This document shows, in pieces, positions 36,828-52,850 of a stretch of 64,000 bases of DNA. Location: contig NZ_LR027880.1 in assembly GCF_900537995.1 (NCBI RefSeq), positions 1,248,001 through 1,312,000 on the forward strand. Direction: 5' to 3'. The translations under genes were made by a program, and so were the position numbers. Numbering within the stretch: the stretch's first letter is position 1; each line of letters starts with the position of its first letter. The notes under the pieces were generated by a model. The model was not told the DNA's origin, searched no databases, and saw only the letters and a program-made list of their open reading frames with translations. The stretch comes from Roseburia intestinalis L1-82 (GTDB taxonomy: Bacteria > Bacillota > Clostridia > Lachnospirales > Lachnospiraceae).

Positions 36828-38393
36828 ATGAGTATAGCAAAGAATCCGGTTCTGTCCGGTTTTTATCCAGACCCATCTATCTGTAGGGTGGGGGAAGATT
36901 ATTATATGGTAAATTCGAGTTTTGCATATTTTCCGGGGATTCCTGTGTTTCATAGCAGGGATTTAGCGCACTGGGAGCAGATCGGCAATGCGTTGGACAG
37001 GGAAGAACAGCTTCCACTGTCCGGCAGTGAGATCTCACGGGGGATCTTTGCACCGACGATCCGTTACCACGAGGGCACTTATTACATCATAACAACAAAT
37101 GTGGATCATGGTGGAAACTTTGTGATAACGGCACAGGATCCCAAAGGGCCGTGGTCAGTTCCACATTATCTGGGAGATGCGGCGGAGGGGATTGATCCGA
37201 GCCTCTTTTTTGATGAAGATGGGAAATGTTATTATGTCGGGACAAGACCGAATCCGTCCGGGGTCAGACACAATGGTGACTGGGAGATCTGGATAGAGGA
37301 GCTGGATCTTCATGCAATGTGCTTAAAAGGTGCGGGGACGGCGGTCTGGAAAGGTGCATTAAAAGATTGTATCTGGCCGGAGGGACCGCACCTTTACAAA
37401 AAAGACGGCTGGTATTATCTGATGATCGCAGAAGGCGGTACGGGACCGGAACACAGCATCAGTATCGCAAGAAGCAGGTCGTTAAGAGAATGGTTCTGTG
37501 GATGCAAGAGAAATCCAATTTTCACGCACCGCAATCTTGGCAGGGATTATCCGGTGATCTATGCAGGACACGGAGATCTTGTGGATGATGCAGACGGAAA
37601 CTGGTATGTCGTCATGCTTGCATCGAGGCCATGTGAGGGACACTGTAGTATTGGCAGGGAAACTTTTCTGGCAAAAGTGGAATGGGAGGACGGATGGCCC
37701 GTCATCAATCCGGGGATTGGACATCTGACAGAGAAAACAGAACTTCCGATCGGTGAGTATCGCCTGGAAAAGGAAGTGACCCATGCGGATTTTATTACAT
37801 TTGATCAGAAAAAAATAGATGACAGACTCCTGTCGCTGCAGAGAAGGGATGAAAATACATATTCACTGATCGAGAGAAAAGGTTTTCTCAGGATGTATCT
37901 GAAAAAACAGAAACTTACAGAGAAAACGGACGCGCAGTATTTCGGGCTGCGGCAGAAAGATTATGATTTTACATTTTCGGCATGCATGGAATTTGATGCG
38001 GAGCGGGAAAATGAACAGGCGGGGATCGTCTGCTATCAGAATCATGCAAATCATCTTTCGATGCGCATCTGCGGTGGAAAAGAGAAGAGAAAGCTGCAGG
38101 TAATCGCACATATAACAGAAAACGATACGCTGCTTGCGGAAGAAGAAATCAATGCAAAAGGAATGCTGGAACTGTATTTGAAGGCAGCAGGACAGAGGGC
38201 AGAATTTTTTGTCAGAGATGAGGAAGGAAAGGTATTAAAACTCATTAAAGACGTGAGCCTGCTGCCGTACAGTACAGAGGAAGCAGGGGGATTTGTGGGC
38301 TGCACGCTCGGTGTGTATGCGTCTTCAAACGGTGAAATATCGGATCGTTTTGCGGATGTAGCATGGATTTCGTATGAGGGAATACCGGGTTGA
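36828..38393 (+). CDS. GH43 beta-xylosidase/alpha-L-arabinofuranosidase
   Basis: A 521-residue GH43 enzyme without signal peptide. The five-bladed propeller shows D15 in GFYPDPSICR (base), Asp in EGIDPSLFFD and Glu in IWPEGPHLY (acid). The C-terminal domain (about 330-521) is the beta-sandwich common in xylosidase and arabinofuranosidase members. It would remove non-reducing xylose or arabinose side groups. It lies 78 nt after the esterase gene, probably as the last enzyme of the xylan operon. Sequence alone does not decide between the two activities. Confidence 0.92.
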   Translation: MSIAKNPVLSGFYPDPSICRVGEDYYMVNSSFAYFPGIPVFHSRDLAHWEQIGNALDREEQLPLSGSEISRGIFAPTIRYHEGTYYIITTNVDHGGNFVITAQDPKGPWSVPHYLGDAAEGIDPSLFFDEDGKCYYVGTRPNPSGVRHNGDWEIWIEELDLHAMCLKGAGTAVWKGALKDCIWPEGPHLYKKDGWYYLMIAEGGTGPEHSISIARSRSLREWFCGCKRNPIFTHRNLGRDYPVIYAGHGDLVDDADGNWYVVMLASRPCEGHCSIGRETFLAKVEWEDGWPVINPGIGHLTEKTELPIGEYRLEKEVTHADFITFDQKKIDDRLLSLQRRDENTYSLIERKGFLRMYLKKQKLTEKTDAQYFGLRQKDYDFTFSACMEFDAERENEQAGIVCYQNHANHLSMRICGGKEKRKLQVIAHITENDTLLAEEEINAKGMLELYLKAAGQRAEFFVRDEEGKVLKLIKDVSLLPYSTEEAGGFVGCTLGVYASSNGEISDRFADVAWISYEGIPG

Positions 38394-38497: not shown

Positions 38498-39511
38498 ATG
38501 GATAAGGGGTTAGAAAAGAATATTACGATTGCGGACGTGGCGGAGGCGCTTGGAGTATCGAAGACAACCGTGTCACGTGCAATTTCCGGTAAAGGTCGTA
38601 TTGGCAGGGAGACAAGAGAGCGCGTGCTCGCCTACATAGAAGAACATGATTATAAGCCGAATGTCATTGCGAAAGGGCTTGCGCAGTCTAAAACTTATAA
38701 TATCTGTGTGGTCATGCCGGGGGAGTATGATGTTGTGGATCTTACATTTTTTCAGGAATGTCTGTTTGGGATACAGGAGATTGCGGGCAGCATGGAATAT
38801 GATATCCTGCTTTCTATCTGCAGGAAAAACGATATATCTTCTCTTGAGCGTATCATAGCAAACCATAAAGTGGACGGTGTGATCCTGATGCGCACTTTTG
38901 TGGAAGATGAACAGATCGATTTTCTGCAGACAAAAAATGTACCGTTTGTCACGATCGGAAGTACCAGTGCCAATTACAAAGGCGTGATTCAGATCGATCA
39001 CAATCACAAGAGTGCATGCAAAGAGCTTACATCGATCATTTTGATGAAGCAGATGGACAAAATTGCACTGATCGGCGGCAATGAAGAGCATGTGGTTACA
39101 CAGAGCCGTCTGCGGGGATTTCGTGAGGCATATGCGAAGATGGGGAAAACGTTAGATGAGGATCTGATGTTTTTAAGCCAGGATAACCAGGTTCTGGTGG
39201 AAAAGGCAGTCAAGGAAGCATTAAACAGACAGGCAGACTGTATCCTCTGTATGGATGACGCTGTCTGCAGCCGTGTTTTAAAGACACTGCGCCAGCAGCA
39301 TGTCAAAGTGCCGGAAGATGTCCGGGTGGCATCGTTTTATAACAGCATGGTACTTGAAAACAATGTTCCCTCGATCACATCGCTTTCATTTGATGCAAAG
39401 GAACTCGGCATGGTGGCATGCCGTACACTGCTTGATCTGACGGAGGGACTTGAGGTGAAAGAGCGCACATTGCTTCCGTATGAGGTGGTGCTGAAGGAAT
39501 CGACGAAATAA
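38498..39511 (+). CDS. LacI-family transcriptional regulator
   Basis: A 337-residue regulator. The N-terminal helix-turn-helix and hinge are ITIADVAEALGVSKTTVSRA and YKPNVIAKGLAQSK. A periplasmic-binding-like sensor domain (about 60-335) would bind a sugar effector. It stands between the xylan and galactan operons. The palindrome in its promoter and related sites at the GH42 and galactan importer promoters suggest that it represses the galactan set and itself; control of the xylan genes is left to the two-component pair. A strong terminator follows. Confidence 0.93.
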   Translation: MDKGLEKNITIADVAEALGVSKTTVSRAISGKGRIGRETRERVLAYIEEHDYKPNVIAKGLAQSKTYNICVVMPGEYDVVDLTFFQECLFGIQEIAGSMEYDILLSICRKNDISSLERIIANHKVDGVILMRTFVEDEQIDFLQTKNVPFVTIGSTSANYKGVIQIDHNHKSACKELTSIILMKQMDKIALIGGNEEHVVTQSRLRGFREAYAKMGKTLDEDLMFLSQDNQVLVEKAVKEALNRQADCILCMDDAVCSRVLKTLRQQHVKVPEDVRVASFYNSMVLENNVPSITSLSFDAKELGMVACRTLLDLTEGLEVKERTLLPYEVVLKESTK

Positions 39512-40074: not shown

Positions 40075-41421
40075 ATGAAGAAAAAAGTCATCAGCACAGT
40101 ATTATGTGCAGCAATGGTAGCATCCATGTTTGCAGGATGTGGAAACAAAGCAGCCGATAACAGCAGCGCAGCAGACAATAGTGCAGCAGACAACAGCGCA
40201 GCAGAGAGCACAAACAGTGCAGCAGCAACAGAGACAGGTGATGCTGCAGATAATGCAGAAACAGCTTCCGGTGATGCAATCGCAAATCTGATCGCATCTA
40301 CAGATGGAACCGTAGATATCCAGCTCTGGTGTTCAGAACTTGAGGCTTATCAGAACGTTATGAAAGAGCTGACAGACAAATTTAAAGAGCAGTACTCAGA
40401 TGTAGATTTTAACATCACGATCGGTGCTGTATCTGAGGCAGATGCAAAAGATAAGATTCTTGAGGATATCGATGCAGCAGCAGATGTATTCGTATTTGCA
40501 GATGATCAGGTAAATGATCTTGTAAATGCAGGTGCGCTTCAGGAAGTGGCAGCTACTTATACATATGATCCGAAAGAAACAAACTCAGAGGCAACTGTAG
40601 CAGCAGCTACCAAAGACGGAAAACTTTACGCTTATCCGTTAACAGCATCGAATGGTTACTTCTTATACTATGATTCAAACATCTTCTCTGAAGAGGATGT
40701 GGCTTCCTGGGAAAACCTTACAGCAAAAGCGGAAGAAGCAGGAACAAAAGTTGGCATGAATGTAGCAGATGGATGGTATCTGTATGGATTTTTCTCTGGT
40801 GCAGGCTGTGAACTTTCCATGAATGAAGATAACTCAAACAACTGTGACTGGAACTCTGAGACCGGTCTTGCAGTAGCACAGAGTATTGAGAATATCACTT
40901 CTTCCCCGGCATTTGTAAGCGTACAAGATCAGGATGCAATTACCATGTTAAATGACGGTACACTTGGCGCATATGTTTCCGGTACATGGAACACCGGATC
41001 TTTTGAAGCAAAATACGGTGACGGATATGCAGCATGTAAATTACCTACTTTCGATGTAAATGGAACAGCTACACAGATGGGATCTTATGCAGGATACAAA
41101 TTCGTAGGTGTTAACTCCCATGCTAAAAATGTTGGCTGGTCAATGCTCCTTGCTGAGTATCTCACAAATGAGGAGAGCCAGTTAGCAATTGGTAACGCTA
41201 CATCAGAGGGACCGGCTAACACAGTAGCAGCAGCTCAGATTGATTCCCCGGCACTTGCAGCACTTGCAGCGCAGTCAGAGTTTGCAGATCAGCAGGTTGT
41301 AGGCAATAATTACTGGGATCCGGCAAAGGCACTTGGACAGAACCTGGTTGACGGTGCAACAGATCTTCAGGCTGTACTTGATGATGCAGTAGCTGGTATT
41401 ACACAGCCGGTAGCTGAATAA
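40075..41421 (+). CDS. Lipoprotein sugar-binding protein (MalE-type) of the galactan importer
   Basis: A 448-residue lipoprotein with lipobox MFAGCG (C22), then a low-complexity Ala/Asn/Ser linker (about 27-60) and a MalE-like binding domain (VDIQLWCSELEAYQNVMKE onwards). It is first in an operon with MalF- and MalG-like permeases. Galacto-oligosaccharides are the inferred ligand because GH53, GH2, galK and galT follow. AGGGAGGAA precedes the ATG. A hairpin between this gene and the permease probably keeps its transcript level high. Confidence 0.92.
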   Translation: MKKKVISTVLCAAMVASMFAGCGNKAADNSSAADNSAADNSAAESTNSAAATETGDAADNAETASGDAIANLIASTDGTVDIQLWCSELEAYQNVMKELTDKFKEQYSDVDFNITIGAVSEADAKDKILEDIDAAADVFVFADDQVNDLVNAGALQEVAATYTYDPKETNSEATVAAATKDGKLYAYPLTASNGYFLYYDSNIFSEEDVASWENLTAKAEEAGTKVGMNVADGWYLYGFFSGAGCELSMNEDNSNNCDWNSETGLAVAQSIENITSSPAFVSVQDQDAITMLNDGTLGAYVSGTWNTGSFEAKYGDGYAACKLPTFDVNGTATQMGSYAGYKFVGVNSHAKNVGWSMLLAEYLTNEESQLAIGNATSEGPANTVAAAQIDSPALAALAAQSEFADQQVVGNNYWDPAKALGQNLVDGATDLQAVLDDAVAGITQPVAE

Positions 41422-41643: not shown

Positions 41644-43062
41644 ATGAAAACATTTTTAAACGCAATCAAAAAATACTTTGCCGATTTTGGGACAGCCGTG
41701 GCAAAGGGCGATATCTGGTGCAAGCTTTCACTGCTTGTTATGGGTGCAGGATACTGGGGACGGAAACAGATCGTCAAAGGTGTCTTAATAACAGCCCTTG
41801 AAGTGGTAGTGATCCTGTTTACAGGAATGTTCTCTATTAATTACATTAAGGATTTAAATACACTTGGTACCGTTCAGTATGAGTCCGTATTTGATCCGCT
41901 GACCTTGAAAAATACTGTTAATGATTACGATAACTCATTGCTGATCCTGCTATATGGTATTATTGGTGTTCTCGTAATCGTAGCATTCATATTTTTATAT
42001 ATAAGCAATTTGAAAGCTGTTTATCGGCTTCAGCTTATGAAAGAAGAGGGAGAACATGTCAATACATTTGCAGAAGATATAAAATCTCTTTTCAATGGTA
42101 AGTTTTATATCACATTGCTTACCCTGCCGAGTATCGGTGTTATTATGATGAACATTATACCGATCATTTTTATGTCCTGTGTGGCATTTACCAATTATGA
42201 TATGGATCATATGCCGCCAAACTACCTGTTTACATGGGTTGGACTTAGAAACTTTAAGAACATGTTTACAGGCGGCACCACAATCACATTCTCCTATGCA
42301 TTCGTAAGAATTCTTGCATGGACAATGATCTGGGCAGTATCGGCAACATTTACAACTTTCATCGGTGGTATTCTTTTGGCAAAGCTGATCAACCATGAAG
42401 ATACACATTTTAAAAAAATGTGGAGATCACTTTTTGTTGTGACAATCGCGATTCCACAGTTCGTAACATTGCTTCTTGTAAGCAAAATGTTCAGCGACCA
42501 CGGTATTGTAAATACATTATGTTCCAACATCGGTCTGACAGGATGGTTACAAAGTATCGGACTTGTTTCCGGAAACTATATTCCGTTTCTCTCTAAACCG
42601 GGCTGGTCTCATGCAATGATCATTCTTATTAATATCTGGGTCGGTGTTCCATATCAGATGCTTTCCGCTACCGGTATTCTGATGAATATTCCGACAGATC
42701 AGTTGGAGAGTGCACGTATCGATGGTGCAAATAAATGGCAGATCTTCTGGAAGATCACAATGCCGTATGTATTATTTATCTGTGGACCATCCCTGATTCA
42801 GAGCATTATTGCAAACATCAATAACTTTAACGTTATTTATCTGCTGACAAGTTCCAATGCAACAGCAAACATGGCATTTGCAAACTCTAATGCAAAAGAG
42901 ACAGACCTTCTCATTACATGGCTGTTTACATTGACCAACGATAACTCAAACTATAAGATGGCATCGGTAATTGGTATTATTTCATTTGCTATCTGTGCGC
43001 TTCTTACATTGCTTAGCTATACAAGAATGATCAGTGGTGATAAAGAGGAGGTGTACCAATAA
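41644..43062 (+). CDS. ABC sugar transporter permease (MalF-type)
   Basis: A 472-residue permease. Two N-terminal helices (about 45-70 and 100-125) precede the six-helix core, as in Gram-positive MalF/MalC proteins. The EAA loop is LESARIDGANKWQIFWKITM. ATG 41644 is chosen because AGGGAG lies 7 nt upstream; the frame is open to 41557 but that part falls in the stem-loop region. The stop overlaps the MalG start by one base (TAATG). Confidence 0.93.
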   Translation: MKTFLNAIKKYFADFGTAVAKGDIWCKLSLLVMGAGYWGRKQIVKGVLITALEVVVILFTGMFSINYIKDLNTLGTVQYESVFDPLTLKNTVNDYDNSLLILLYGIIGVLVIVAFIFLYISNLKAVYRLQLMKEEGEHVNTFAEDIKSLFNGKFYITLLTLPSIGVIMMNIIPIIFMSCVAFTNYDMDHMPPNYLFTWVGLRNFKNMFTGGTTITFSYAFVRILAWTMIWAVSATFTTFIGGILLAKLINHEDTHFKKMWRSLFVVTIAIPQFVTLLLVSKMFSDHGIVNTLCSNIGLTGWLQSIGLVSGNYIPFLSKPGWSHAMIILINIWVGVPYQMLSATGILMNIPTDQLESARIDGANKWQIFWKITMPYVLFICGPSLIQSIIANINNFNVIYLLTSSNATANMAFANSNAKETDLLITWLFTLTNDNSNYKMASVIGIISFAICALLTLLSYTRMISGDKEEVYQ

Positions 43063-43907
43063 TGAAAAAGAAAACATGGAAAATCATTGTGAGACATTTA
43101 GTACTTGCTCTTTTGGCAATCATCTGGCTGATTCCGATTGTATGGCTGGTTGTAACATCCCTTTCCACTACAAAGGGTGTAAGTTACCAGCACTTCTTCC
43201 CGGAACACTGGACACTGGCAAACTATCATCAACTGTTCTTCAAGACAGATACAGCAGCAAACTTCCCTGCATGGTTTAAAAATACTTTTATCGTAGCATT
43301 TTTTACCTGCATCGTTTCATCCGCTTTTGTACTGATGGTCTCTTATGCATTCAGTTGTATGAGATTCAAGGCGAGAAAACCTCTGATGAGCTTTTCTATC
43401 ATTCTTGGAATGTTCCCAGGTGTACTTTCCATGATCGCTGTTTATTTTGTCTTAAAAATGATCGGACTTACTGATTCACTTGCAGGTCTGGTTATCGTAT
43501 ATTCTGCAGGTTCGGGACTTGGGTTTTTAGTATTGAAAGGTTTCTTTGATACCATCCCGGTTTCACTGAGAGAGGCTGCCCGCTTAGAGGGTGCTTCCGA
43601 GGCAACAATTTTTGGAAAAATCATTATTCCGCTGTCAAAACCGATGATAGTATATACGATTATCAACTCTTTCCTGAATCCATGGATGGATTTTGTTCTG
43701 GCACGAATCATGATCAAGTCCAAAGAGTCCGCAGACTGGACAGTCGCGATCGGTCTTTATAACCTGTTACAGAAGACATTAATCGGAGATTACTTCGCAA
43801 TCTTCTGTGCAGGCGGTGTTATGATCGCAATCCCGATTTCAATTCTCTTCGTAGTGATGCAGAAGTTCTATGTTGAGGGTGTTACCGGTGGAGCTGTAAA
43901 AGGTTAG
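43062..43907 (+). CDS. ABC sugar transporter permease (MalG-type)
   Basis: A 281-residue permease with six helices and the EAA loop REAARLEGASEATIFGKIII. The C terminus YVEGVTGGAVKG is typical of MalG. It overlaps the MalF-like stop by one base. The importer has no ATPase in the window, which again points to a shared MsmX/UgpC-type ATPase. Confidence 0.95.
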   Translation: MKKKTWKIIVRHLVLALLAIIWLIPIVWLVVTSLSTTKGVSYQHFFPEHWTLANYHQLFFKTDTAANFPAWFKNTFIVAFFTCIVSSAFVLMVSYAFSCMRFKARKPLMSFSIILGMFPGVLSMIAVYFVLKMIGLTDSLAGLVIVYSAGSGLGFLVLKGFFDTIPVSLREAARLEGASEATIFGKIIIPLSKPMIVYTIINSFLNPWMDFVLARIMIKSKESADWTVAIGLYNLLQKTLIGDYFAIFCAGGVMIAIPISILFVVMQKFYVEGVTGGAVKG

Positions 43908-43936: not shown

Positions 43937-45787
43937 ATGGATAAATTTGTACTGAATCTTATTCATCGTCCGGAGCTGGTTCCAGAGTATTCTGCAACAG
44001 TGACTGGACAGGGAAAAGAAGAGGATATCGGAGATAAGGCACTGCTGACAGAGTCTTTGGATATCTTTAAGACACAGCAGAGATTAGCTCATGAGAATGG
44101 ATTAAAAGTAACCATTCAGATGACATACGCTTCACTGTTCAATGATGAGGCAGTGGAGATCGCAAAACATGATCATGAAGTATATGGCGATGAGATCGCA
44201 TTATCTTTATTAGGACTTCCTTGTGAGGAGTTCCGTGAAAAATATAAGACCAAGGATTTCTGTATCTGGATGTTTTCCATGGAAGATAAGAAAGCCATCG
44301 TAAATGATGTATTCGAGAAATTCCATGACAGATTCGGTTTTTATCCGGAATCCACAGGTTCTTATTATATGGATGCTGACCTGACAAACTATATCAAGGC
44401 AGCATACCCGACTGTAAAATGTGCAGTTGCTACCTGCTGGGAGGAAGGCCCGAAGGCATATCATACCTGCAACAACTCCTGGTATACATTATTTGATGGA
44501 GGCCCATGGGCACCATGGATTCCGTCTAAACAGAACACACATGCACCGGCTGCAAATAAAGAGGAAGACAGTGGTATCGTAGCGATCCCTCATCTTTCCC
44601 GTGACCTGATCGCATGTTACGATGGAAATGGTTCGAACTTCGGAACACATCCGCAGAACGTACTCCGTGGTATGATCTATGACACAAAGACATGGGAGTA
44701 TCCATATCTTTACAATCTGATCGACCAGTACCGTTCCTTAGAGAAATATAACAACGGATATTCCTACAACATGATGTTCGTTGGACCGGGCTGGATGAAC
44801 AAGATGGGACGCTGGGAGCAGCCATATGAACTCCTTTACAAATCCTACAGCGACGGCTGTGCTTACTACGGCAAACTGAAAAAAGAGGGTCAGTTAGTAG
44901 ATATGACGATGTCGGAGTTCGCTGATTATTATCGTGAGAAGAAAGGTGTCAACCAGAACAATTACAACGAGCCGGAATGTGCTCTCTGGAGAGATATCTT
45001 ATATGGTTCCGACAAACAGTTATTCTGGTACTGCGATCCATACATGAGAGCATGTGTCAACATGGATCAGGGCGGTGCGATCGTTGACCTTCGTCCTTAT
45101 GCAGCAAAATTAGAGTGGCCGGTCGGCATCGGAACAAAACATGTTCAGGATGCATCCTACCCATTCTTAATTCAGGAGAAATACCGTGCAGGTTATTTCA
45201 CCCACTATGCAGGAGAGGGAACCGTAAGAAGTGCAAAACTTTCTTACAAAGGAGAGGAAGTAGATCTCTGCCTCTGCCCGACACATGCACATTTCTCACA
45301 GGAAGGAAAGACAAGAATCCTTACATTAGACCCGGTTACGATCGAGTTCAGGGATCTGACTGTAAAACTTCAGACAAAAGAGTACTTTGAGGAAGGTTCT
45401 TCGAACATCAGGATCGAGCGTCACATTTTAGAGATGAGTGATCCGACTGCGGAAGTAACATTAAATGAATACATGGTTGCATGCTATGGTACAACTGAGT
45501 ATTCCGAAGATATGAGTCATATCACATTAAAGATCGACGGACCGGAAGAGAAGACGATCAACTATGAATACAAATGCCGTGAGGAAGGCGTTGTGGGAGC
45601 TGCAGAGGTTTCCGCAGTTATTCCTGAAATCGAGACAAGAGTATCCATGACAGCATCCGATGCAAATGCAGAAGGATATGTAAAAGAAGGATATGCATTC
45701 TCACCAATGTTCACATTGGGATACAGAAAAACAATCTCAGATAAGGAGGTATTTGCAACATGGCTCAACTTGGCAAAGGCAAATTAA
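43937..45787 (+). CDS. Unrecognised 616-residue cytoplasmic protein in the galactan operon
   Basis: I do not recognise the family. There is no signal peptide or membrane helix. The first 350 residues look like a (beta/alpha) barrel: strand-helix alternation, KVTIQMTYASLF, a HDHEVYGDEIALSLLG segment and GFYPESTGSYYMDADLTNYI, which recall polysaccharide-deacetylase (NodB-like) or GH57-like folds. Conserved-looking Trp, Asp, Glu and His clusters (TCWEEGPKAYHT, DGGPWAPWIPSKQ) suit a carbohydrate site. Residues about 400-600 look like a beta-sandwich. It lies 29 nt after the MalG gene with GAGGAGAAAG before the ATG, so it is co-transcribed with the importer. A role on imported galactan or related oligosaccharides is inference only. 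It is not GH112 by its motifs. Confidence 0.75.
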   Translation: MDKFVLNLIHRPELVPEYSATVTGQGKEEDIGDKALLTESLDIFKTQQRLAHENGLKVTIQMTYASLFNDEAVEIAKHDHEVYGDEIALSLLGLPCEEFREKYKTKDFCIWMFSMEDKKAIVNDVFEKFHDRFGFYPESTGSYYMDADLTNYIKAAYPTVKCAVATCWEEGPKAYHTCNNSWYTLFDGGPWAPWIPSKQNTHAPAANKEEDSGIVAIPHLSRDLIACYDGNGSNFGTHPQNVLRGMIYDTKTWEYPYLYNLIDQYRSLEKYNNGYSYNMMFVGPGWMNKMGRWEQPYELLYKSYSDGCAYYGKLKKEGQLVDMTMSEFADYYREKKGVNQNNYNEPECALWRDILYGSDKQLFWYCDPYMRACVNMDQGGAIVDLRPYAAKLEWPVGIGTKHVQDASYPFLIQEKYRAGYFTHYAGEGTVRSAKLSYKGEEVDLCLCPTHAHFSQEGKTRILTLDPVTIEFRDLTVKLQTKEYFEEGSSNIRIERHILEMSDPTAEVTLNEYMVACYGTTEYSEDMSHITLKIDGPEEKTINYEYKCREEGVVGAAEVSAVIPEIETRVSMTASDANAEGYVKEGYAFSPMFTLGYRKTISDKEVFATWLNLAKAN

Positions 45788-45978
45788 ATTATAGATGCCC
45801 ATCCTGTTTTTTAAGAGATCTCGACATCGATATGTTCTACAATAAAGAAACCGGTATTTACAGCTGCATCCGCTGCCAGTATCGTGGAACGGAAGAGGAT
45901 GTATTAGAGAAAAACGAAATGATCCGTTTCCGCTATAAAGCAATGCATGACAGAATTACAAAATTTGATTTTGACTAA
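45760..45978 (+). CDS. Small zinc-ribbon protein overlapping the 616-residue protein gene
   Basis: A 72-residue protein with one zinc ribbon: YRCPSCFLRD and SCIRCQYRGT, giving CxxC pairs 22 residues apart. The ATG lies 28 nt inside the upstream gene in another frame, and a perfect TAAGGAGGT (45742-45750) stands 10 nt before it, so translation is strong and coupled. The basic C terminus (RFRYKAMHDRITKF) could bind nucleic acid or a partner protein. I do not recognise a function; tight coupling suggests it works with the 616-residue protein. Confidence 0.85.
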   Translation: MAQLGKGKLNYRCPSCFLRDLDIDMFYNKETGIYSCIRCQYRGTEEDVLEKNEMIRFRYKAMHDRITKFDFD

Positions 45979-46001
45979 ATTCTGGTAACAGAAACAAAAT
46001 G

Positions 46002-46034
46002 ACTGCCGTACTGAAATATTGTACGGCAGTTTTA
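46002..46034 (+). terminator. Terminator or attenuator after the zinc-ribbon gene
   Basis: ACTGCCGTAC (46002-46011) pairs with GTACGGCAGT (46021-46030), followed by only four T residues. The short T-run may allow read-through into the AraC gene 17 nt later. Confidence 0.7.
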
Positions 46035-46050
46035 AAAAGAGGTAATAACC

Positions 46051-46989
46051 ATGGGAAAAAAGAAAAAAGACACAATGGAATTGAGGTTTTACGAAGTTCC
46101 GCAGGGTGAATATGTTCTGGCACTTTTAGGAGACAACTGGATTCGTGATTACGGACATGATGAAAGTAATCTTCATTTTCACAATCTCATGGAAATCGGA
46201 TATTGTAAAAACGGTACCGGCGAGTTGATCTTAAATGAAGAGACAAAACGTTATGAACCGGCAATGGTCAGTATTATTCCACAGAATTACCCGCATGTGA
46301 CGATCAGTGACATTGCGGAGGGACCAAGCTATTGGGAATATTTATTTTTTGATCCGATGGTCATGATCCAGGAATTATATCCGGATAATGCTGTCATGCA
46401 AAAAAAAGTATTGCAGATGATCAATCGTAAGGCTTTATTTTTCCATGAGTGGGAAAACCGCGGAATTTCCGTTCTTGTGAAGATGCTCATGGATGAAATG
46501 AGACAGAAAAAAAATCATTTTAATGATTGTGTCAGAGGTCTTTTGATCGCTTTTTTTGCTGAATTGCTCCGCATGTGTGAGAGCGATGTCTCGGAGAATG
46601 AAGTAAAGAAAAAGACAGGTGTTTCCCAGATCACGGCGGCACTTGATTATGTCAGGTTAGAGTATGCAAACAATATCCGTGTCGAGGAACTTGCAAAGGC
46701 AAGCCATATGAGTGAGACACATTTCAGAAGAGTCTTTGAATCTTATATGAATATGTCACCGATGGATTACATCAATCTGATGCGGGTGCAGAAAGCCTGT
46801 GATATCATGAAAAAGACAAATGACCCGATGGATGTGGTCGCCCAGAAAGTAGGATTTACCACGACATCCACATTTAACCGGAACTTCAAAAAATATCTGA
46901 ATACATCTCCGTATCAGTGGAAGATCAGTCCGGAAAATTATGAGAGAAAGCTGCTGAATTATAATATTTCCGCATTGAAGGGCTGGTAA
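46051..46989 (+). CDS. AraC-family transcriptional regulator
   Basis: A 312-residue regulator. The N-terminal cupin sensor domain has LHFHNLMEIGYCKNGTGE and PQNYPHVT. The C-terminal 100 residues hold two helix-turn-helix motifs (ELAKASHMSETHFRRVFE and VAQKVGFTTTSTFNRNFKKY). It lies between the importer set and the beta-galactosidase/galactanase genes, so it likely activates one or both. Start after AAAGAGGTAATAACC. Confidence 0.94.
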   Translation: MGKKKKDTMELRFYEVPQGEYVLALLGDNWIRDYGHDESNLHFHNLMEIGYCKNGTGELILNEETKRYEPAMVSIIPQNYPHVTISDIAEGPSYWEYLFFDPMVMIQELYPDNAVMQKKVLQMINRKALFFHEWENRGISVLVKMLMDEMRQKKNHFNDCVRGLLIAFFAELLRMCESDVSENEVKKKTGVSQITAALDYVRLEYANNIRVEELAKASHMSETHFRRVFESYMNMSPMDYINLMRVQKACDIMKKTNDPMDVVAQKVGFTTTSTFNRNFKKYLNTSPYQWKISPENYERKLLNYNISALKGW

Positions 46990-47088: not shown

Positions 47089-50000
47089 ATGTCATTCGAA
47101 ATAAAAAAGATCCATGATCCGAAGTTTTTTAAGGAAAACTGCATGGCAGCACACTCCGATCATGTGGCATATGCGAATGAAACAGAAGCAGAAGAAAAAA
47201 AGAGCAGCTTCCGGTTATTACTGGATGGCGTCTGGAAATTTCATTATGCGAGAAATTATGCGCAGACCGTCAGTGGGTTTGAGGCAGAAGATTTTGATTG
47301 TAAATGCTGGGAGGATATTCGGGTGCCGGCACATATCCAGATGGAGGGCTATGATATCCCGCAGTATGTAAACATCCAGTATCCGTGGGATGGAAGGGAA
47401 GATGTGTGGCGCGACGCAGTGCCGAGTGAATTTAATCCGGTGGCAAGCTATGTAAAATATTTTACACTGCCGGAAGGTTTTAGAAAAAGCGGACTTTATA
47501 TTTCTTTTCAGGGTGTGGAGAGCGGTTTTGCATTGTGGTTAAACGGTCATTATGTCGGATACAGTGAGGACAGTTTCACCCCGTCAGATTTTGATCTTAC
47601 TCCGTATGTAAAAGAGGGCGAAAATAAGCTGGCAGTCCAGGTGTTTAAGTGGACTTCTTCAAGCTGGTGCGAGGATCAGGATTTCTACCGGTTCTCCGGT
47701 ATTTTCCGTTCGGTTTATCTGTATACCATGCCAAAGGTGCATGTGTATGATTTAAAAGTGCAGCCGGTTGTCGATGAGGCGGTTTTAAATGCAGATCTTC
47801 TTGTCACAATGCAGATGCGCGGCGAGGGAAAAGCAAGACTGACCCTGACCGGCAGCAGAAATTATTCCGTTTTGGAAGAAAAAGAAGAACAGATTGTTTT
47901 CTCTGAGGAGCTGCCAGTCTCTGAGGGGGAAGTTCATTTTGAAAAAGAGGTGAAAAAACCGGATCTGTGGAGTGCGGAGATCCCGAATTTATACACGCTT
48001 ACGATCGAATGTTTTGATCAAAACGGGGAGAGAAGCGAGCTTGTCAGCCAAAGAATCGGATTCCGCCGTTTTGAAATGAAAGACGGTATCATGACATTAA
48101 ATGGAAAGCGCATTGTATTTAAGGGTGTCAACCGTCATGAGTTCAGTTCCAAAACAGGACGTGCAGTGACAAGGGAAGAGGTTTTAAAAGACATCGTTAC
48201 GATGAAACAGAACAACATCAATGCGATCCGCACCTGCCACTACCCGGATGCTTCCATTATATATGATCTCTGCGATGAGTACGGACTCTATATGATCGCG
48301 GAAAACAATCTCGAATCACACGGTTCATGGGATGCCGCGATGCATGGTTCTGTGCCGAAAGATATGATCGTTCCGGGGGACAACATGGACTGGGAACCGA
48401 TGATGCTTGATCGTGTCAATTCCTGTTACCAGAGAGATAAAAACCATCCGGCAGTTCTGATCTGGTCAGTCGGAAATGAATCTTACGGCGGAAAAGTAAT
48501 TTTTGACATGTCCGAAAAATTCCGTGCCTTAGATCCATACCGTCTGGTTCATTATGAGGGAATTTTCAATGACCGCAGATATGAGGCGACCAGCGATATG
48601 GAAAGCCAGATGTATACGAGCGTGGAAAATGTGAAAAAATTCCTCGCCGAGCATAAGGAAAAACCGTTTATTATGTGTGAATATACACATGCGATGGGAA
48701 ATTCCTGTGGTGCCATGCACAAATACACGGATCTGACCGATACGGAACCGAGATATCAGGGCGGTTTTATCTGGGATTACATTGACCAGTCCATCTTGAA
48801 AAAAGACCGCTATGGAAAAGATTTTCAGGCATATGGCGGCGATTTCTTAGAGCGTCCGACGGATTATAATTTCAGTGGAAATGGAATCTGCTATGGTGGA
48901 GACCGAGATCCGTCCCCGAAGATGCAGGAAGTGAAATTCAATTACCAGAATATCAGTATTCTGTTTGAAAAGGAAGGGAAGTTTACCGTTGTAAATAAAA
49001 ACCTGTTTGCAAATACCGACCGGTTCCGCTGTGTGGCAGTTTTACAGAAAAACGGGGTTGTTGTGAAAAAACAGGAGATAGAGACAGCAGTACCGCCGCT
49101 TAGCACGAAGGACTATGAGATCCCGTTTGCCATTTTGCGTGCAGATGATAAGGATCAGAAAAAAGACCCGGATGCAGAATACACACTCACCGTTTCATTC
49201 TGGTTAAAGGAGGATATGAGCTGGGCAGATGCAGGACATGAGGTCGCTTTTGGACAGAAGATTTATAAAAAGATCCCTGCTTTCCATGCATCCGAAAAGC
49301 CGATCCGCGTGGTTCACGGCAAGGTAAACATCGGAGTAAAAGGCGAAGATTTTGACTGCCTGTTTTCCATGTTGAGTGGGGGACTTGTTTCCTACCGCTA
49401 TGCGGGGAAAGAAATGATCGAGAAGATCCCGATGCCGAATTTCTGGAGGGCACCGGTGGACAATGATAACGGAAGCATGGCTCCGGCGCGCTATGCACAG
49501 TGGAAGATCGCAAGCATGTATATCAGTCACAGAAACGGTGGGATGTTTGACAATGTCCCGACCAAAGTGGAAGAAAAAGACAATACCGTGACAGTCACTT
49601 ACACCTATTTTATGCCGACAACACCGGCGGGCAAATGTCAGGTTTCCTACACCGTTTTTGGTGATGGAACGATCGAGACAAAACTGATGTATGATCCGGT
49701 AGAGGGACTTCCGGATATGCCGGAGTTTGGCATGATGTTCTGGTTTAATGCAGATTATGACAATCTTACCTGGTATGGCATGGGACCGGATGAGACCTAT
49801 GCAGACCGGAGACATGGAGCAAAGCTTGGAATCTACAGCAATAAAGTGGCTGACAATATGGCAAAATATTTAGTTCCGCAGGAATGTGGCAACAAAGTCG
49901 GTGTGCGGTATGCGCGCCTTGTGGATGCAAAAGGCAGGGGAATGATGTTTGAGGGAGATGAATTAAGCTTCTCGGCACTTCCGTATACACCACATGAACT

Positions 50001-50175
50001 TGAAAATGCAGCCCATGTTTATGAACTGCCGCAGGTACATCACACGATCGTCCGTGTGGCATTGGCGCAGATGGGAGTCGGCGGTGATGACAGCTGGGGA
50101 TCTTTAGTGCACCCGGAATACCATATTGATGTGACGAAACCGTTAGAATTTACGTTCCGCTTTAAAGGAATATAG
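47089..50175 (+). CDS. lacZ: GH2 beta-galactosidase (LacZ type)
   Basis: A 1028-residue LacZ-size enzyme with the five-domain layout: sugar-binding domain (about 40-225), Ig-like domain, TIM barrel with acid/base E464 (WSVGNESYGG) and nucleophile E531 (FIMCEYTHAMGNS), a second Ig-like domain, and the large beta-galactosidase small-chain domain (from about 760). There is no signal peptide. It would split galactose from imported galacto-oligosaccharides and lactose. GAGGACATGAC lies before the ATG with AAGGAGG. The GH53 gene follows after about 95 nt. Confidence 0.96.
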   Translation: MSFEIKKIHDPKFFKENCMAAHSDHVAYANETEAEEKKSSFRLLLDGVWKFHYARNYAQTVSGFEAEDFDCKCWEDIRVPAHIQMEGYDIPQYVNIQYPWDGREDVWRDAVPSEFNPVASYVKYFTLPEGFRKSGLYISFQGVESGFALWLNGHYVGYSEDSFTPSDFDLTPYVKEGENKLAVQVFKWTSSSWCEDQDFYRFSGIFRSVYLYTMPKVHVYDLKVQPVVDEAVLNADLLVTMQMRGEGKARLTLTGSRNYSVLEEKEEQIVFSEELPVSEGEVHFEKEVKKPDLWSAEIPNLYTLTIECFDQNGERSELVSQRIGFRRFEMKDGIMTLNGKRIVFKGVNRHEFSSKTGRAVTREEVLKDIVTMKQNNINAIRTCHYPDASIIYDLCDEYGLYMIAENNLESHGSWDAAMHGSVPKDMIVPGDNMDWEPMMLDRVNSCYQRDKNHPAVLIWSVGNESYGGKVIFDMSEKFRALDPYRLVHYEGIFNDRRYEATSDMESQMYTSVENVKKFLAEHKEKPFIMCEYTHAMGNSCGAMHKYTDLTDTEPRYQGGFIWDYIDQSILKKDRYGKDFQAYGGDFLERPTDYNFSGNGICYGGDRDPSPKMQEVKFNYQNISILFEKEGKFTVVNKNLFANTDRFRCVAVLQKNGVVVKKQEIETAVPPLSTKDYEIPFAILRADDKDQKKDPDAEYTLTVSFWLKEDMSWADAGHEVAFGQKIYKKIPAFHASEKPIRVVHGKVNIGVKGEDFDCLFSMLSGGLVSYRYAGKEMIEKIPMPNFWRAPVDNDNGSMAPARYAQWKIASMYISHRNGGMFDNVPTKVEEKDNTVTVTYTYFMPTTPAGKCQVSYTVFGDGTIETKLMYDPVEGLPDMPEFGMMFWFNADYDNLTWYGMGPDETYADRRHGAKLGIYSNKVADNMAKYLVPQECGNKVGVRYARLVDAKGRGMMFEGDELSFSALPYTPHELENAAHVYELPQVHHTIVRVALAQMGVGGDDSWGSLVHPEYHIDVTKPLEFTFRFKGI

Positions 50176-50269
50176 TATAAGTAATAAAGTATAAGAAATA
50201 AGCTCGGCTGCCTGATTTATTTATGTTTTGGCACAAATATTACAGCTTATGAAAAGGAAGGGAATGACT

Positions 50270-51430
50270 ATGAATTTTGTAAAAGGAATGGATTTGTCTA
50301 CACTTGCAGAGTTGGAGAAGTGTGGTGCGAAGTATTATGACAACGGAGAAGAAAAGGATATTTTGGAGATCATGAAATCTTATGATGTGGATACGATCCG
50401 TATCCGTGTCTGGAATGATCCGTGGTCAGAAACAGGAGAATCTTACGGTGCAGGAGAAAATGATCCAAAGACATCTCTTGAGATCGCCAAAAAGGTGACA
50501 AAAGCAGGTTTTGGTGTGCTTTTAAATCTGCATTACAGTGATTTCTGGGCAGATCCGGGAAAACAGTTTAAACCGAAGGCATGGGAAAATTATGGTGTCA
50601 AAGAGTTAGAGCAGGCAGTTTATGATTTCACGTTAGAGATGATGCATCTTTATTTGGAAAACGGTGTTAATATCACGATGGTACAGGTCGGAAATGAACT
50701 TTCAAATGGTCTGCTCTGGCCGGAAGGCAAGGTGCCGAACTATGATAACATCGCAACATTTGTCAATGCCGGTATCCGTGCTGTCCGCAAAGCAGATGAA
50801 GAGCGTCTCGCAGGCTCTATCAAAGGTGTATGCCCGCAGATGAAGGAACTGTCAAAGATTCTGGTTATGATCCATCTTGACAATGGCGGCAACAATGCAC
50901 TTTACCGTGAATGGTTTGATAATTTTACAAAACGCGGTGAGGATTTTGAACTGATCGGATTGTCCTATTATCCATTCTGGCATGGATCTCTTCAGATGTT
51001 AAATGACAACATGAATGATATTGCCAAGCGCTACGGCAAAGATCTGATCGTGGCAGAAGTCTCCATGGGATATACGATGGACGACTACAAGGATTATGAG
51101 AAACTTGCCGATGAGGAGCGCAAGGGTTATGCGACGAAACCGGCGCTGGTTGAGAAAATCGAATACCCGATGACCGTACAGGGACAGTATGACTTTATGG
51201 AAGACTTCTTAAACCGCATCAGCCATATTGATGATGGAAAAGGGAAGGGCTTCTTCTACTGGGAGCCGGCATGGATCCCGGTTCCGGGTTCCGGCTGGGC
51301 AACGCCTGCTTCCTTAAAATACATACAGGATCCGGGACCGTGCGGCAACGAGTGGGCAAACCAGGCATTGTTTGATTATGAGGGCAATGCGCTGCCGACG
51401 TTAAAACTGATCCGTGATTTTAAGGCATAA
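50270..51430 (+). CDS. GH53 endo-beta-1,4-galactanase, apparently cytoplasmic
   Basis: A 386-residue GH53 enzyme. E143 in MVQVGNELSNGLLWPEG is the acid/base and E263 in LIVAEVSMGYT the nucleophile; FVKGMDLSTLAELE at the N terminus is typical. GH53 cuts beta-1,4-galactan side chains of pectin. Most described members are secreted, but this one has no signal peptide from any start in the frame. ATG 50270 follows AAGGAAGGG by 7 nt. It would act on imported oligosaccharides, together with the GH2 enzyme in front. A terminator follows at 51466. Confidence 0.93.
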   Translation: MNFVKGMDLSTLAELEKCGAKYYDNGEEKDILEIMKSYDVDTIRIRVWNDPWSETGESYGAGENDPKTSLEIAKKVTKAGFGVLLNLHYSDFWADPGKQFKPKAWENYGVKELEQAVYDFTLEMMHLYLENGVNITMVQVGNELSNGLLWPEGKVPNYDNIATFVNAGIRAVRKADEERLAGSIKGVCPQMKELSKILVMIHLDNGGNNALYREWFDNFTKRGEDFELIGLSYYPFWHGSLQMLNDNMNDIAKRYGKDLIVAEVSMGYTMDDYKDYEKLADEERKGYATKPALVEKIEYPMTVQGQYDFMEDFLNRISHIDDGKGKGFFYWEPAWIPVPGSGWATPASLKYIQDPGPCGNEWANQALFDYEGNALPTLKLIRDFKA

Positions 51431-51680: not shown

Positions 51681-52850
51681 ATGGTTTGGGAGAACGTACT
51701 GGCAAAGTTTAAAGAGTTATTTGGCGGCGAAGGAGAGATTGGTGTTTATTTTGCACCGGGACGTGTGAATATGATCGGAGAGCATACCGATTACAACGGC
51801 GGTCATGTATTTCCATGTGCACTGACGATCGGTACTTATGGTGTGGCAAGAAAAAGAGAGGATAAAAAACTTCGTTTTTATTCGATGAATTTTGAGCAGC
51901 TTGGCGTGTTAGAGTCATCTGTAGAGAATTTAAAACCGGAGAAAGAAGCTGACTGGACCAACTATCCGAAGGGCGTGATGTGGGCATTCGGAGAGAAAGG
52001 CATGAAGGTAGAACAGGGTATGGATCTTGTATTATTCGGAAATATCCCGAATGGTTCCGGACTTTCTTCTTCCGCATCCGTAGAGGTTTTAACAGGATTT
52101 ATCTTACGCGATATGTTTGGATTTGATGTGACAAATCAGGATCTTGCACTGATCGGTCAGTATTCGGAAAATAAATTCAACGGTGTCAACTGTGGTATCA
52201 TGGATCAGTTTGCTATCGCAATGGGCAAAGCAGGCCATGCGATCTTCCTTGACACTGCAACTTTAAAATATGAGTATGCACCGATCAAACTGGAGAATGC
52301 AAAGATTGTGATTTCCTGCAGTAATAAAAAACGTGGACTGGGCGATTCCAAATACAATGAGCGCCGCAGTGAGTGTGAAAAAGCACTGGCAGAGTTACAG
52401 AAAGTTGTCTCCATCGACGCACTTGGAGATCTGACAGAGGTACAGTTTGAAGAACACAAAGATGCCATCAAAGAGGAAGTGTGTGTAAGACGTGCAAAAC
52501 ATGCAGTTTATGAGAATCAGAGAACGATCAAAGCAGTAGAGGCACTGAAAAATAATGATGTTGCCTTATTTGGAAAACTGATGAATGAATCCCACGTTTC
52601 TCTCCGCGATGATTATGAAGTAACCGGTATTGAGCTGGATACTTTGGTTGAGGAAGCATGGAAGATTGATGGTGTGATCGGCTCAAGAATGACAGGTGCG
52701 GGCTTTGGCGGATGTACGGTCAGCATCGTAAAAGATGAGGCTGTGGATACCTTTATCAAAGAAGTCGGTGCAGCTTATGAGAAGAAGATCGGATATGCAG
52801 CAGATTTCTATGTTGTTGAGATTGGTGACGGTCCAGTGAAATTAGCCTGA
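51681..52850 (+). CDS. galK: Galactokinase
   Basis: A 389-residue GHMP-family kinase. It has the galactokinase signature PGRVNMIGEHTDYNGGH (about 27-43), the ATP loop NGSGLSSSASVEV and the C-terminal MTGAGFGGCTVSIV. It phosphorylates galactose released by GH42, GH2 and GH53 action, the first Leloir step in the cytoplasm. AAAAGGAGG precedes the ATG. galT follows after 122 nt; galE and a galactose mutarotase are not in the window. Confidence 0.97.
   Translation: MVWENVLAKFKELFGGEGEIGVYFAPGRVNMIGEHTDYNGGHVFPCALTIGTYGVARKREDKKLRFYSMNFEQLGVLESSVENLKPEKEADWTNYPKGVMWAFGEKGMKVEQGMDLVLFGNIPNGSGLSSSASVEVLTGFILRDMFGFDVTNQDLALIGQYSENKFNGVNCGIMDQFAIAMGKAGHAIFLDTATLKYEYAPIKLENAKIVISCSNKKRGLGDSKYNERRSECEKALAELQKVVSIDALGDLTEVQFEEHKDAIKEEVCVRRAKHAVYENQRTIKAVEALKNNDVALFGKLMNESHVSLRDDYEVTGIELDTLVEEAWKIDGVIGSRMTGAGFGGCTVSIVKDEAVDTFIKEVGAAYEKKIGYAADFYVVEIGDGPVKLA

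Follow-up and report, generated by a model that had tools for sequence, protein, structure and literature searches.

The 64,000-nucleotide stretch of the Roseburia intestinalis L1-82 genome analyzed here (contig NZ_LR027880.1, positions 1,248,001 to 1,312,000 of the forward strand; from now on referred to as the window) contains two overlapping genes encoding a 616-residue protein, P616, and a 72-residue zinc-ribbon-like protein, Zn72. The genomic part of our finding, a conserved and co-occurring gene pair, is firm; its function stands at about even odds. We propose, with the balance lying close to the middle, that P616 is a cytosolic glycoside-acting enzyme of a new family and that Zn72 is its obligate small subunit. 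Slightly less probable than this is the broader proposal that the two are the founding pair of a new carbohydrate-active family, in which a GH57-like chain would need a co-translated zinc-ribbon microprotein subunit, with a branch carrying a long loop after the first barrel strand acting on β-1,4-galactan oligosaccharides inside gut and rumen Clostridia and short-loop branches acting on other glycans.

Both open reading frames (ORFs) named in a preliminary description of the window are present, each with an ATG start codon (Table 1). As that description also held, P616 lies directly behind MalFG-like permease genes, starting 29 nucleotides (nt) 3′ of the MalG-like gene (BPD_transp_1), and the start codon of Zn72 falls within the last part of the P616 gene, behind a ribosome-binding site. 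Zn72 is read in the -1 frame, the overlap is 28 nt including the stop codon, and 10 nt separate the end of the AAGGAGG site from the Zn72 ATG. The same arrangement is found in 80 further loci, the best 80 of at least 572 contig loci encoding a P616 relative: with the window included, the overlap is 28 nt long in 81/81 loci and the ribosome site reads AAGGAGG in 77, AAGGAG in three and GGGAGG in one.

Selection on the overlap can be read from the codons of P616. Synonymous diversity was calculated for 71 distinct sequences coding for P616, one from the window and the others from 70 of 120 candidate loci; loci failing the script's pattern, holding N or being duplicates were left out. The 16-codon segment from codon 600 has the lowest value of 591 such segments (-0.447, with a standard deviation (SD) among segments of 0.052), about 8.5 SD below zero. 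At K603, E604, T608, L610, E613, K614 and A615, one and the same codon is used whenever the residue is present, V605 and L612 in the same segment are still variable, and the constrained codons spell the ribosome site, start and first codons of Zn72. The P616 residue lying over the Zn72 start codon is Trp in 119 and Cys in one of 120 close homologues; in a wider set (118 readable of 120) it is Cys in 77, Trp in 28, Arg in 10 and Phe, Val or Ser in one each. Cys and Trp have little chemistry in common; since both use TGN codons, which a -1-frame ATG demands, their alternation is a trace of the Zn72 start. Judged from these sequence comparisons, Zn72 is a real gene under selection. The ten homologues with Arg over the start codon (including P0272, P0286 and P0291, and one named Opitutus) are predicted to have lost the zinc ORF or to start it elsewhere, whereas the Trp codon of the Paenibacillus homologues P0262 and P0279 would predict an overlapping zinc ORF.

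The two genes also occur together across genomes. A strong Zn72 match was identified in 40 of 299 genomes of the same family, and all 40 encode an overlapping P616 (in two pieces in G711 and G875), while P616 is absent from four further genomes with only a weak Zn72 match (E > 0.005). When 341 genomes of the class were searched with a profile, 13 further full-length P616 members came up, from 12 genomes and 8 families, and an overlapping zinc ORF accompanies each of the 13, the overlap measuring 19-34 nt. The zinc ORF is likewise present at 39% identity, both in G197, from another family of the order, and in G712, one of the 40 strong-match genomes. Searching in the other direction, the Zn72 profile gave 10 strong matches in 236 class genomes, all of them at P616 places, besides a marginal one at another position. 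Absence of the zinc ORF was not met in any full-length subfamily member checked at the DNA level; these checks cover one bacterial class and related sequences, with the Paenibacillus homologues represented as proteins only. No overlapping zinc ORF was found at 11 remote superfamily genes, seen either in whole loci of 16-19 kb (L082, L090, L154) or with 132-1077 nt of downstream DNA (L208, L209, L215 and L217-L221, the genes of L212 and L213 being the same as those of L220 and L221). In L210 and L211 the frame reaches the end of the stretch; the gene of L210 is covered by L219 and L211 is uncounted, and L214 is without a long frame. The pair thus appears obligate within the subfamily, as far as tested, and the dedicated small partner suggested in the preliminary description is strongly supported by the conserved overlap, the selection on the start region and the two-way co-occurrence. 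At one locus (L172, G875:C3:173432-175281), P616 apparently runs in two frames with the zinc ORF intact, representing a natural break or an assembly error.

The four Cys residues of Zn72 are invariant in 44/44 aligned homologues, and its model shows two short strands (predicted local distance difference test score 79). With two CxxC knuckles and a small modeled β-ribbon, Zn72 is a predicted zinc ribbon, zinc binding being a prediction as well. None of the Pfam zinc-ribbon models scores over its cut-off for the window's Zn72, a fold search gave nothing below E = 0.8, and there is a weak profile match to a McsA chain (8gqd, E 0.14).

P616 should be cytosolic, since by eye it has no apparent signal peptide and begins directly with the first barrel strand; the window's GH53 seems to be cytosolic too. 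A high-confidence model and structure comparison suggest a GH57/NodB-type barrel at residues 1 to about 340 and a mutarotase-like β-sandwich at residues from about 345 to 616, in line with the fold guessed from the sequence alone. P616 would thus share the (β/α)7-type barrel of GH57, a family in part also carrying a C-terminal β-sandwich, and its barrel is homologous to that of the DUF3863 superfamily in the wide sense. The earlier statement that no known family fits P616 holds for Pfam (no family up to E = 1, GH38 included) and for NCBIfam and PHROGs (nothing beyond chance); a PDB sequence search gave no match beyond chance, and the only close structure is 3lm3, for which no function was found. 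Newness is judged against these four resources. P616 is very conserved yet nameless: the best 120 of 2426 homologues in the protein database (E ≤ 1e-3) are 82-94% identical and, where a source name is given, are called 'hypothetical protein'. The GH57 model PF03065 matches neither P616 nor the window's genome; among the genomes of 40 relatives it matched in 14, 12 of them over the cut-off, with a best E of 1.5e-9 and all matches partial. Ten of the 22 matching places lie in frames of 1013-1073 residues and may be GH38. DUF3863 (PF12979, gathering score 27 bits) does not match P616 either. Three of nine wider relatives score 16.4-17.6 bits and six give no score, and PF12979.14 is precomputed in the protein database for 4/120 wider relatives (P0241, P0280, P0304, P0310) and 0/120 close ones.

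An alignment of 47 core and 3 remote sequences shows no variation at E86 and D223, the same residue at D146 in 48/50 and always Glu or Asp at position 169. D146 follows strand 4 and D223 strand 6 of the P616 model; active-site groups in such barrels sit after strand ends like these. E86, D146, E169 and D223 are candidate catalytic carboxylates. H10, R11, E170, H219, R222, H238 and R244 are found in all or nearly all core members and are mostly absent from the remote ones. From this conservation, and from a strand 1 that reads NxxHR and lacks the CE4 motif, we infer that the pocket would fit a glycosidase better than a deacetylase.

The loop after strand 1 of P616 divides the relatives. In a context set of 114 loci (80 from the contig scan and 34 from drawn genomes, not mutually independent) it is long in 106 and short in eight, at 28-35 and 8-16 residues, respectively, by the script's measure. 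Among loci with flanks of 7.5 kb or more to both sides, a GH53 gene (tblastn E ≤ 1e-8 over more than 100 residues) is present in 58/66 with a long loop and 0/6 with a short one; over all loci the counts are 86/106 and 0/8, the remote paralogue L154 being left out. Long-loop loci from other families of the class have GH53 in 6/6 cases with flanks, the seventh, L201, being a 3.4-kb contig. GH53 genes are rare, with three in the 4.49 Mb of the strain's own genome. The long strand-1 loop is the mark of a galactan-linked subfamily, in which it may contribute to the shape of the substrate site. In a neighborhood of three larger genes to each side (102 loci entered, L079 lost, L154 left out, cluster labels assigned by eye), GH53 was found in 60 loci, in 43 of them at the first downstream place with Zn72 uncounted, MalF-like permeases in 43, GH2 in 36, LacI in 34, AraC in 29, GH42 in 16, galactokinase in 10 and galT in nine. 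Neighboring transporters are of distant types between loci, which argues that P616 goes with the glycan and not with one importer, and the regulators also change. Short-loop relatives neighbor a GlcNAc 2-epimerase-like gene (L089), an α-L-fucosidase gene (L153) or a radical-SAM gene (L227). The preliminary description had taken homologues lacking the small protein and lying outside glycan loci as evidence against its proposal; the former were not seen among the full-length subfamily members checked at the DNA level, the latter were, in that short-loop relatives lie outside galactan loci. Because the zinc gene accompanies these relatives too, the pairing extends beyond the use of galactan. At L164 and L166, P616-Zn72 lies among apparent housekeeping genes (by eye), the next large gene in L166 being galT (Pfam). 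Just behind the pair in L158 (11259-17888) is a gene for an apparently secreted 2209-residue protein with FIVAR, Big_2 and F5/8 type C domains, in which Pfam names no catalytic domain.

Taking the computed gene structure, overlap selection, co-occurrence, predicted fold and context together, we infer catalysis, substrate, zinc binding and docking as follows. P616 would be a hydrolase or transglycosylase of GH57/GH38-like architecture, with the active site at the barrel strand ends and a mutarotase-like β-sandwich behind the barrel. In the galactan-linked subfamily it would process oligosaccharides imported by the adjacent ATP-binding cassette (ABC) importer, working beside GH53 and GH2/GH42. 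Ribosomes finishing P616, or loading at the AAGGAGG inside it, would start Zn72 on the overlapping ATG; both chains would thereby be made together in the same place, and the Zn72 zinc ribbon would dock on P616 and hold it in its active form. Beyond what GH53 and β-galactosidase do, P616 may remove side groups, carry out transfer or cleave a linkage that those enzymes leave.

Several points weigh against an enzyme of galactan use. Seven of the 66 long-loop loci have no GH53, GH42, galK or galT in the stretch; in five of these a GH2 gene shares 59-62% identity with that of the window, which is not so in L156 and L158. The link between loop and GH53 may be inheritance, long and short loops also differing by descent. 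DUF3863 proper (L082:9277) has a Ser aligned at the D146 position, and the GH57 enzyme 1k1x gives no single-body superposition with P616 (rmsd 21 Å, TM 0.28), the domains being oriented differently. A common fold shows no function, and we know of no activity for P616 or 3lm3. Since galactan breakdown is already accounted for by GH53 and β-galactosidases, it is not obvious which reaction P616 itself would carry out. By genome counts the family is also patchy, with full-length P616 in 6/295 genomes of the order, 13/341 of the class and 1/398 of the phylum (own genome counted each time).

Other readings of the pair concern either chain. P616 could be a NodB-type carbohydrate esterase or deacetylase acting on imported acylated oligosaccharides, which we consider improbable: PF01522 does not match it, strand 1 reads NxxHR where the CE4/NodB motif is TFDD, no conserved HxxxH answers to H(S/T)xxH, and CE4 proteins usually lack a mutarotase-like second domain. 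P616 could also serve the importer without catalysis, by binding sugar or in regulation, which would suit the position directly behind the permease genes in the window; but transporters of distant types alternate between loci while GH53 is often kept, and the invariant E, D, H and R residues of a pocket have been retained as well, making such a role quite improbable.

For Zn72, an independent nucleic-acid binder or metal chaperone, merely translationally coupled to P616, is doubtful. Zinc ribbons are mostly nucleic-acid binders and Zn72 has weak similarity to primase-type and TFIIB-type ribbons; yet an independent role should sometimes separate from P616, and no strong match apart from P616 was found in 299 family and 236 class genomes, though the neighboring regulators and transporters change. 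Very improbable, and rejected, is Zn72 as a C-terminal extension of P616 made by -1 frameshifting. The -1 frame, the short overlap and an AAAG run kept in it are in its favor, but a strong ribosome site and ATG at proper spacing occur in 81/81 loci, no classical slippery heptamer is seen by eye, and the zinc motif is fused in none of the 240 P616-family matches listed (two lists of 120), nor in the 120 remote ones listed.

Around the pair, GH2, GH53 and galactokinase genes downstream agree with the galactan and galactose enzymes of the preliminary description; the gene at 36828, beyond the LacI gene, encodes GH43, not a galactose enzyme. As to the galactan import operon described there, the hairpin right after Zn72 (a short run of four T, two within the stem; not listed by a terminator scan with a loop limit of 8) may end a unit of the transporter, P616 and Zn72 genes and set it apart from araC, GH2, GH53 and galK, so that the last three may form another transcript. 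The solute-binding protein has weak NCBIfam GanS similarity (70 bits versus a cut-off of 700). By eye, L163's GH53, other than the window's, seemingly has a signal peptide; cytosolic and secreted forms appear beside P616. GH2/GH53 loci of Roseburia and E. rectale have been drawn with hypothetical genes, P616 being unnamed in the relevant passages (PMC5320581).

Table 1 Features of the P616-Zn72 locus (window positions).
Feature	Position	Strand	Evidence
LacI-family regulator	38498..39511	+	NCBIfam ccpA-like match, 176 bits versus cut-off 442
Sugar ABC importer solute-binding protein (SBP_bac_8)	40075..41421	+	Pfam 1.4e-28
MalF-like permease	41647..43062	+	Pfam BPD_transp_1 2.5e-17; start picked by eye, listed ORF starts at GTG 41557
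MalG-like permease	43062..43907	+	Pfam BPD_transp_1 1.9e-13
P616	43937..45787	+	616 residues, ATG start; ORF list
Ribosome-binding site of Zn72, AAGGAGG, within P616	45743..45749	+	Sequence
Dual-coding overlap P616/Zn72	45760..45787	+	28 nt
Zn72	45760..45978	+	72 residues, ATG start; CPxC-x19-CxxC, zinc-ribbon-like, C-terminal helix
Terminator-like hairpin	46001..46031	+	Folded stretch -22.9 kcal/mol, z -5.3
AraC-family regulator	46051..46989	+	Pfam HTH_18 1.6e-20
GH2 β-galactosidase	47089..50175	+	Pfam Glyco_hydro_2_C 9e-104, Bgal_small_N
GH53 endo-1,4-galactanase	50264..51430	+	Pfam 2.1e-115; no evident signal peptide by eye
Galactokinase	51681..52850	+	Pfam GalKase_gal_bdg 1.1e-22

The titles of the best 80 contig loci are mostly Lachnospiraceae (Roseburia, Eubacterium, Agathobacter). 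Viral or plasmid carriage was considered and rejected: a viral contig scan gave no P616 relative, plasmids gave one remote Parabacteroides relative, and a Paenibacillus homologue as query gave none. That plasmid (L082:7587-10710) encodes a DUF3863 protein and, next to it, an unnamed second member of the superfamily, both downstream of genes for a SusC/SusD-like pair; here the P616 superfamily has a two-gene arrangement in Bacteroidetes.

For gut Clostridia, pectic galactan and galacto-oligosaccharides serve as fibre and prebiotic substrates. Should P616 prove to be an enzyme, a step in the use of galactan by Roseburia-like bacteria that has lacked an explanation could be tested. The pair also offers a handle on DUF3863 and 3lm3, a structure released in 2010; no described function was found in the literature for DUF3863, DUF3864, 3lm3 or its protein BDI_3119. 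No glycoside hydrolase is known in which a zinc-ribbon protein, encoded from a dual-coding overlap, serves as an obligate subunit, and literature searches found nothing joining zinc ribbon, glycoside hydrolase and coupling, nor GH57, GH38 and NodB together.

Among known systems, 3lm3 (Parabacteroides distasonis; DUF3863/DUF3864) shares 16% identity with P616 and is shorter (434 residues). P616 differs from DUF3863/DUF3864 in having no Pfam match to them and in its Asp where the Bacteroidetes DUF3863 protein tested has Ser, and the 16-kb locus L082 contains no zinc-ribbon ORF. GH57 enzymes (4-α-glucanotransferase 1k1x, amylopullulanases) are about 10% identical to P616, which appears to have Asp where GH57 has Glu after strand 4; we know of no zinc partner for GH57. 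The metal and base motifs of CE4/NodB deacetylases and PuuE allantoinase are not seen in P616, which has an extra β-sandwich domain. Translationally coupled overlapping pairs such as trpB-trpA likewise have the second start, with its own ribosome site, inside the end of the first gene; here, the gene in second place, encoding a zinc ribbon, has been found only beside the first, and its start codon is traced by the alternation of Cys and Trp in the P616 C-terminus. Finally, McsA, the zinc-binding activator of the McsB kinase, is like Zn72 a small Cys-rich protein serving a larger enzyme encoded beside it, with a different enzyme class and no evident homology past the zinc ribbon.
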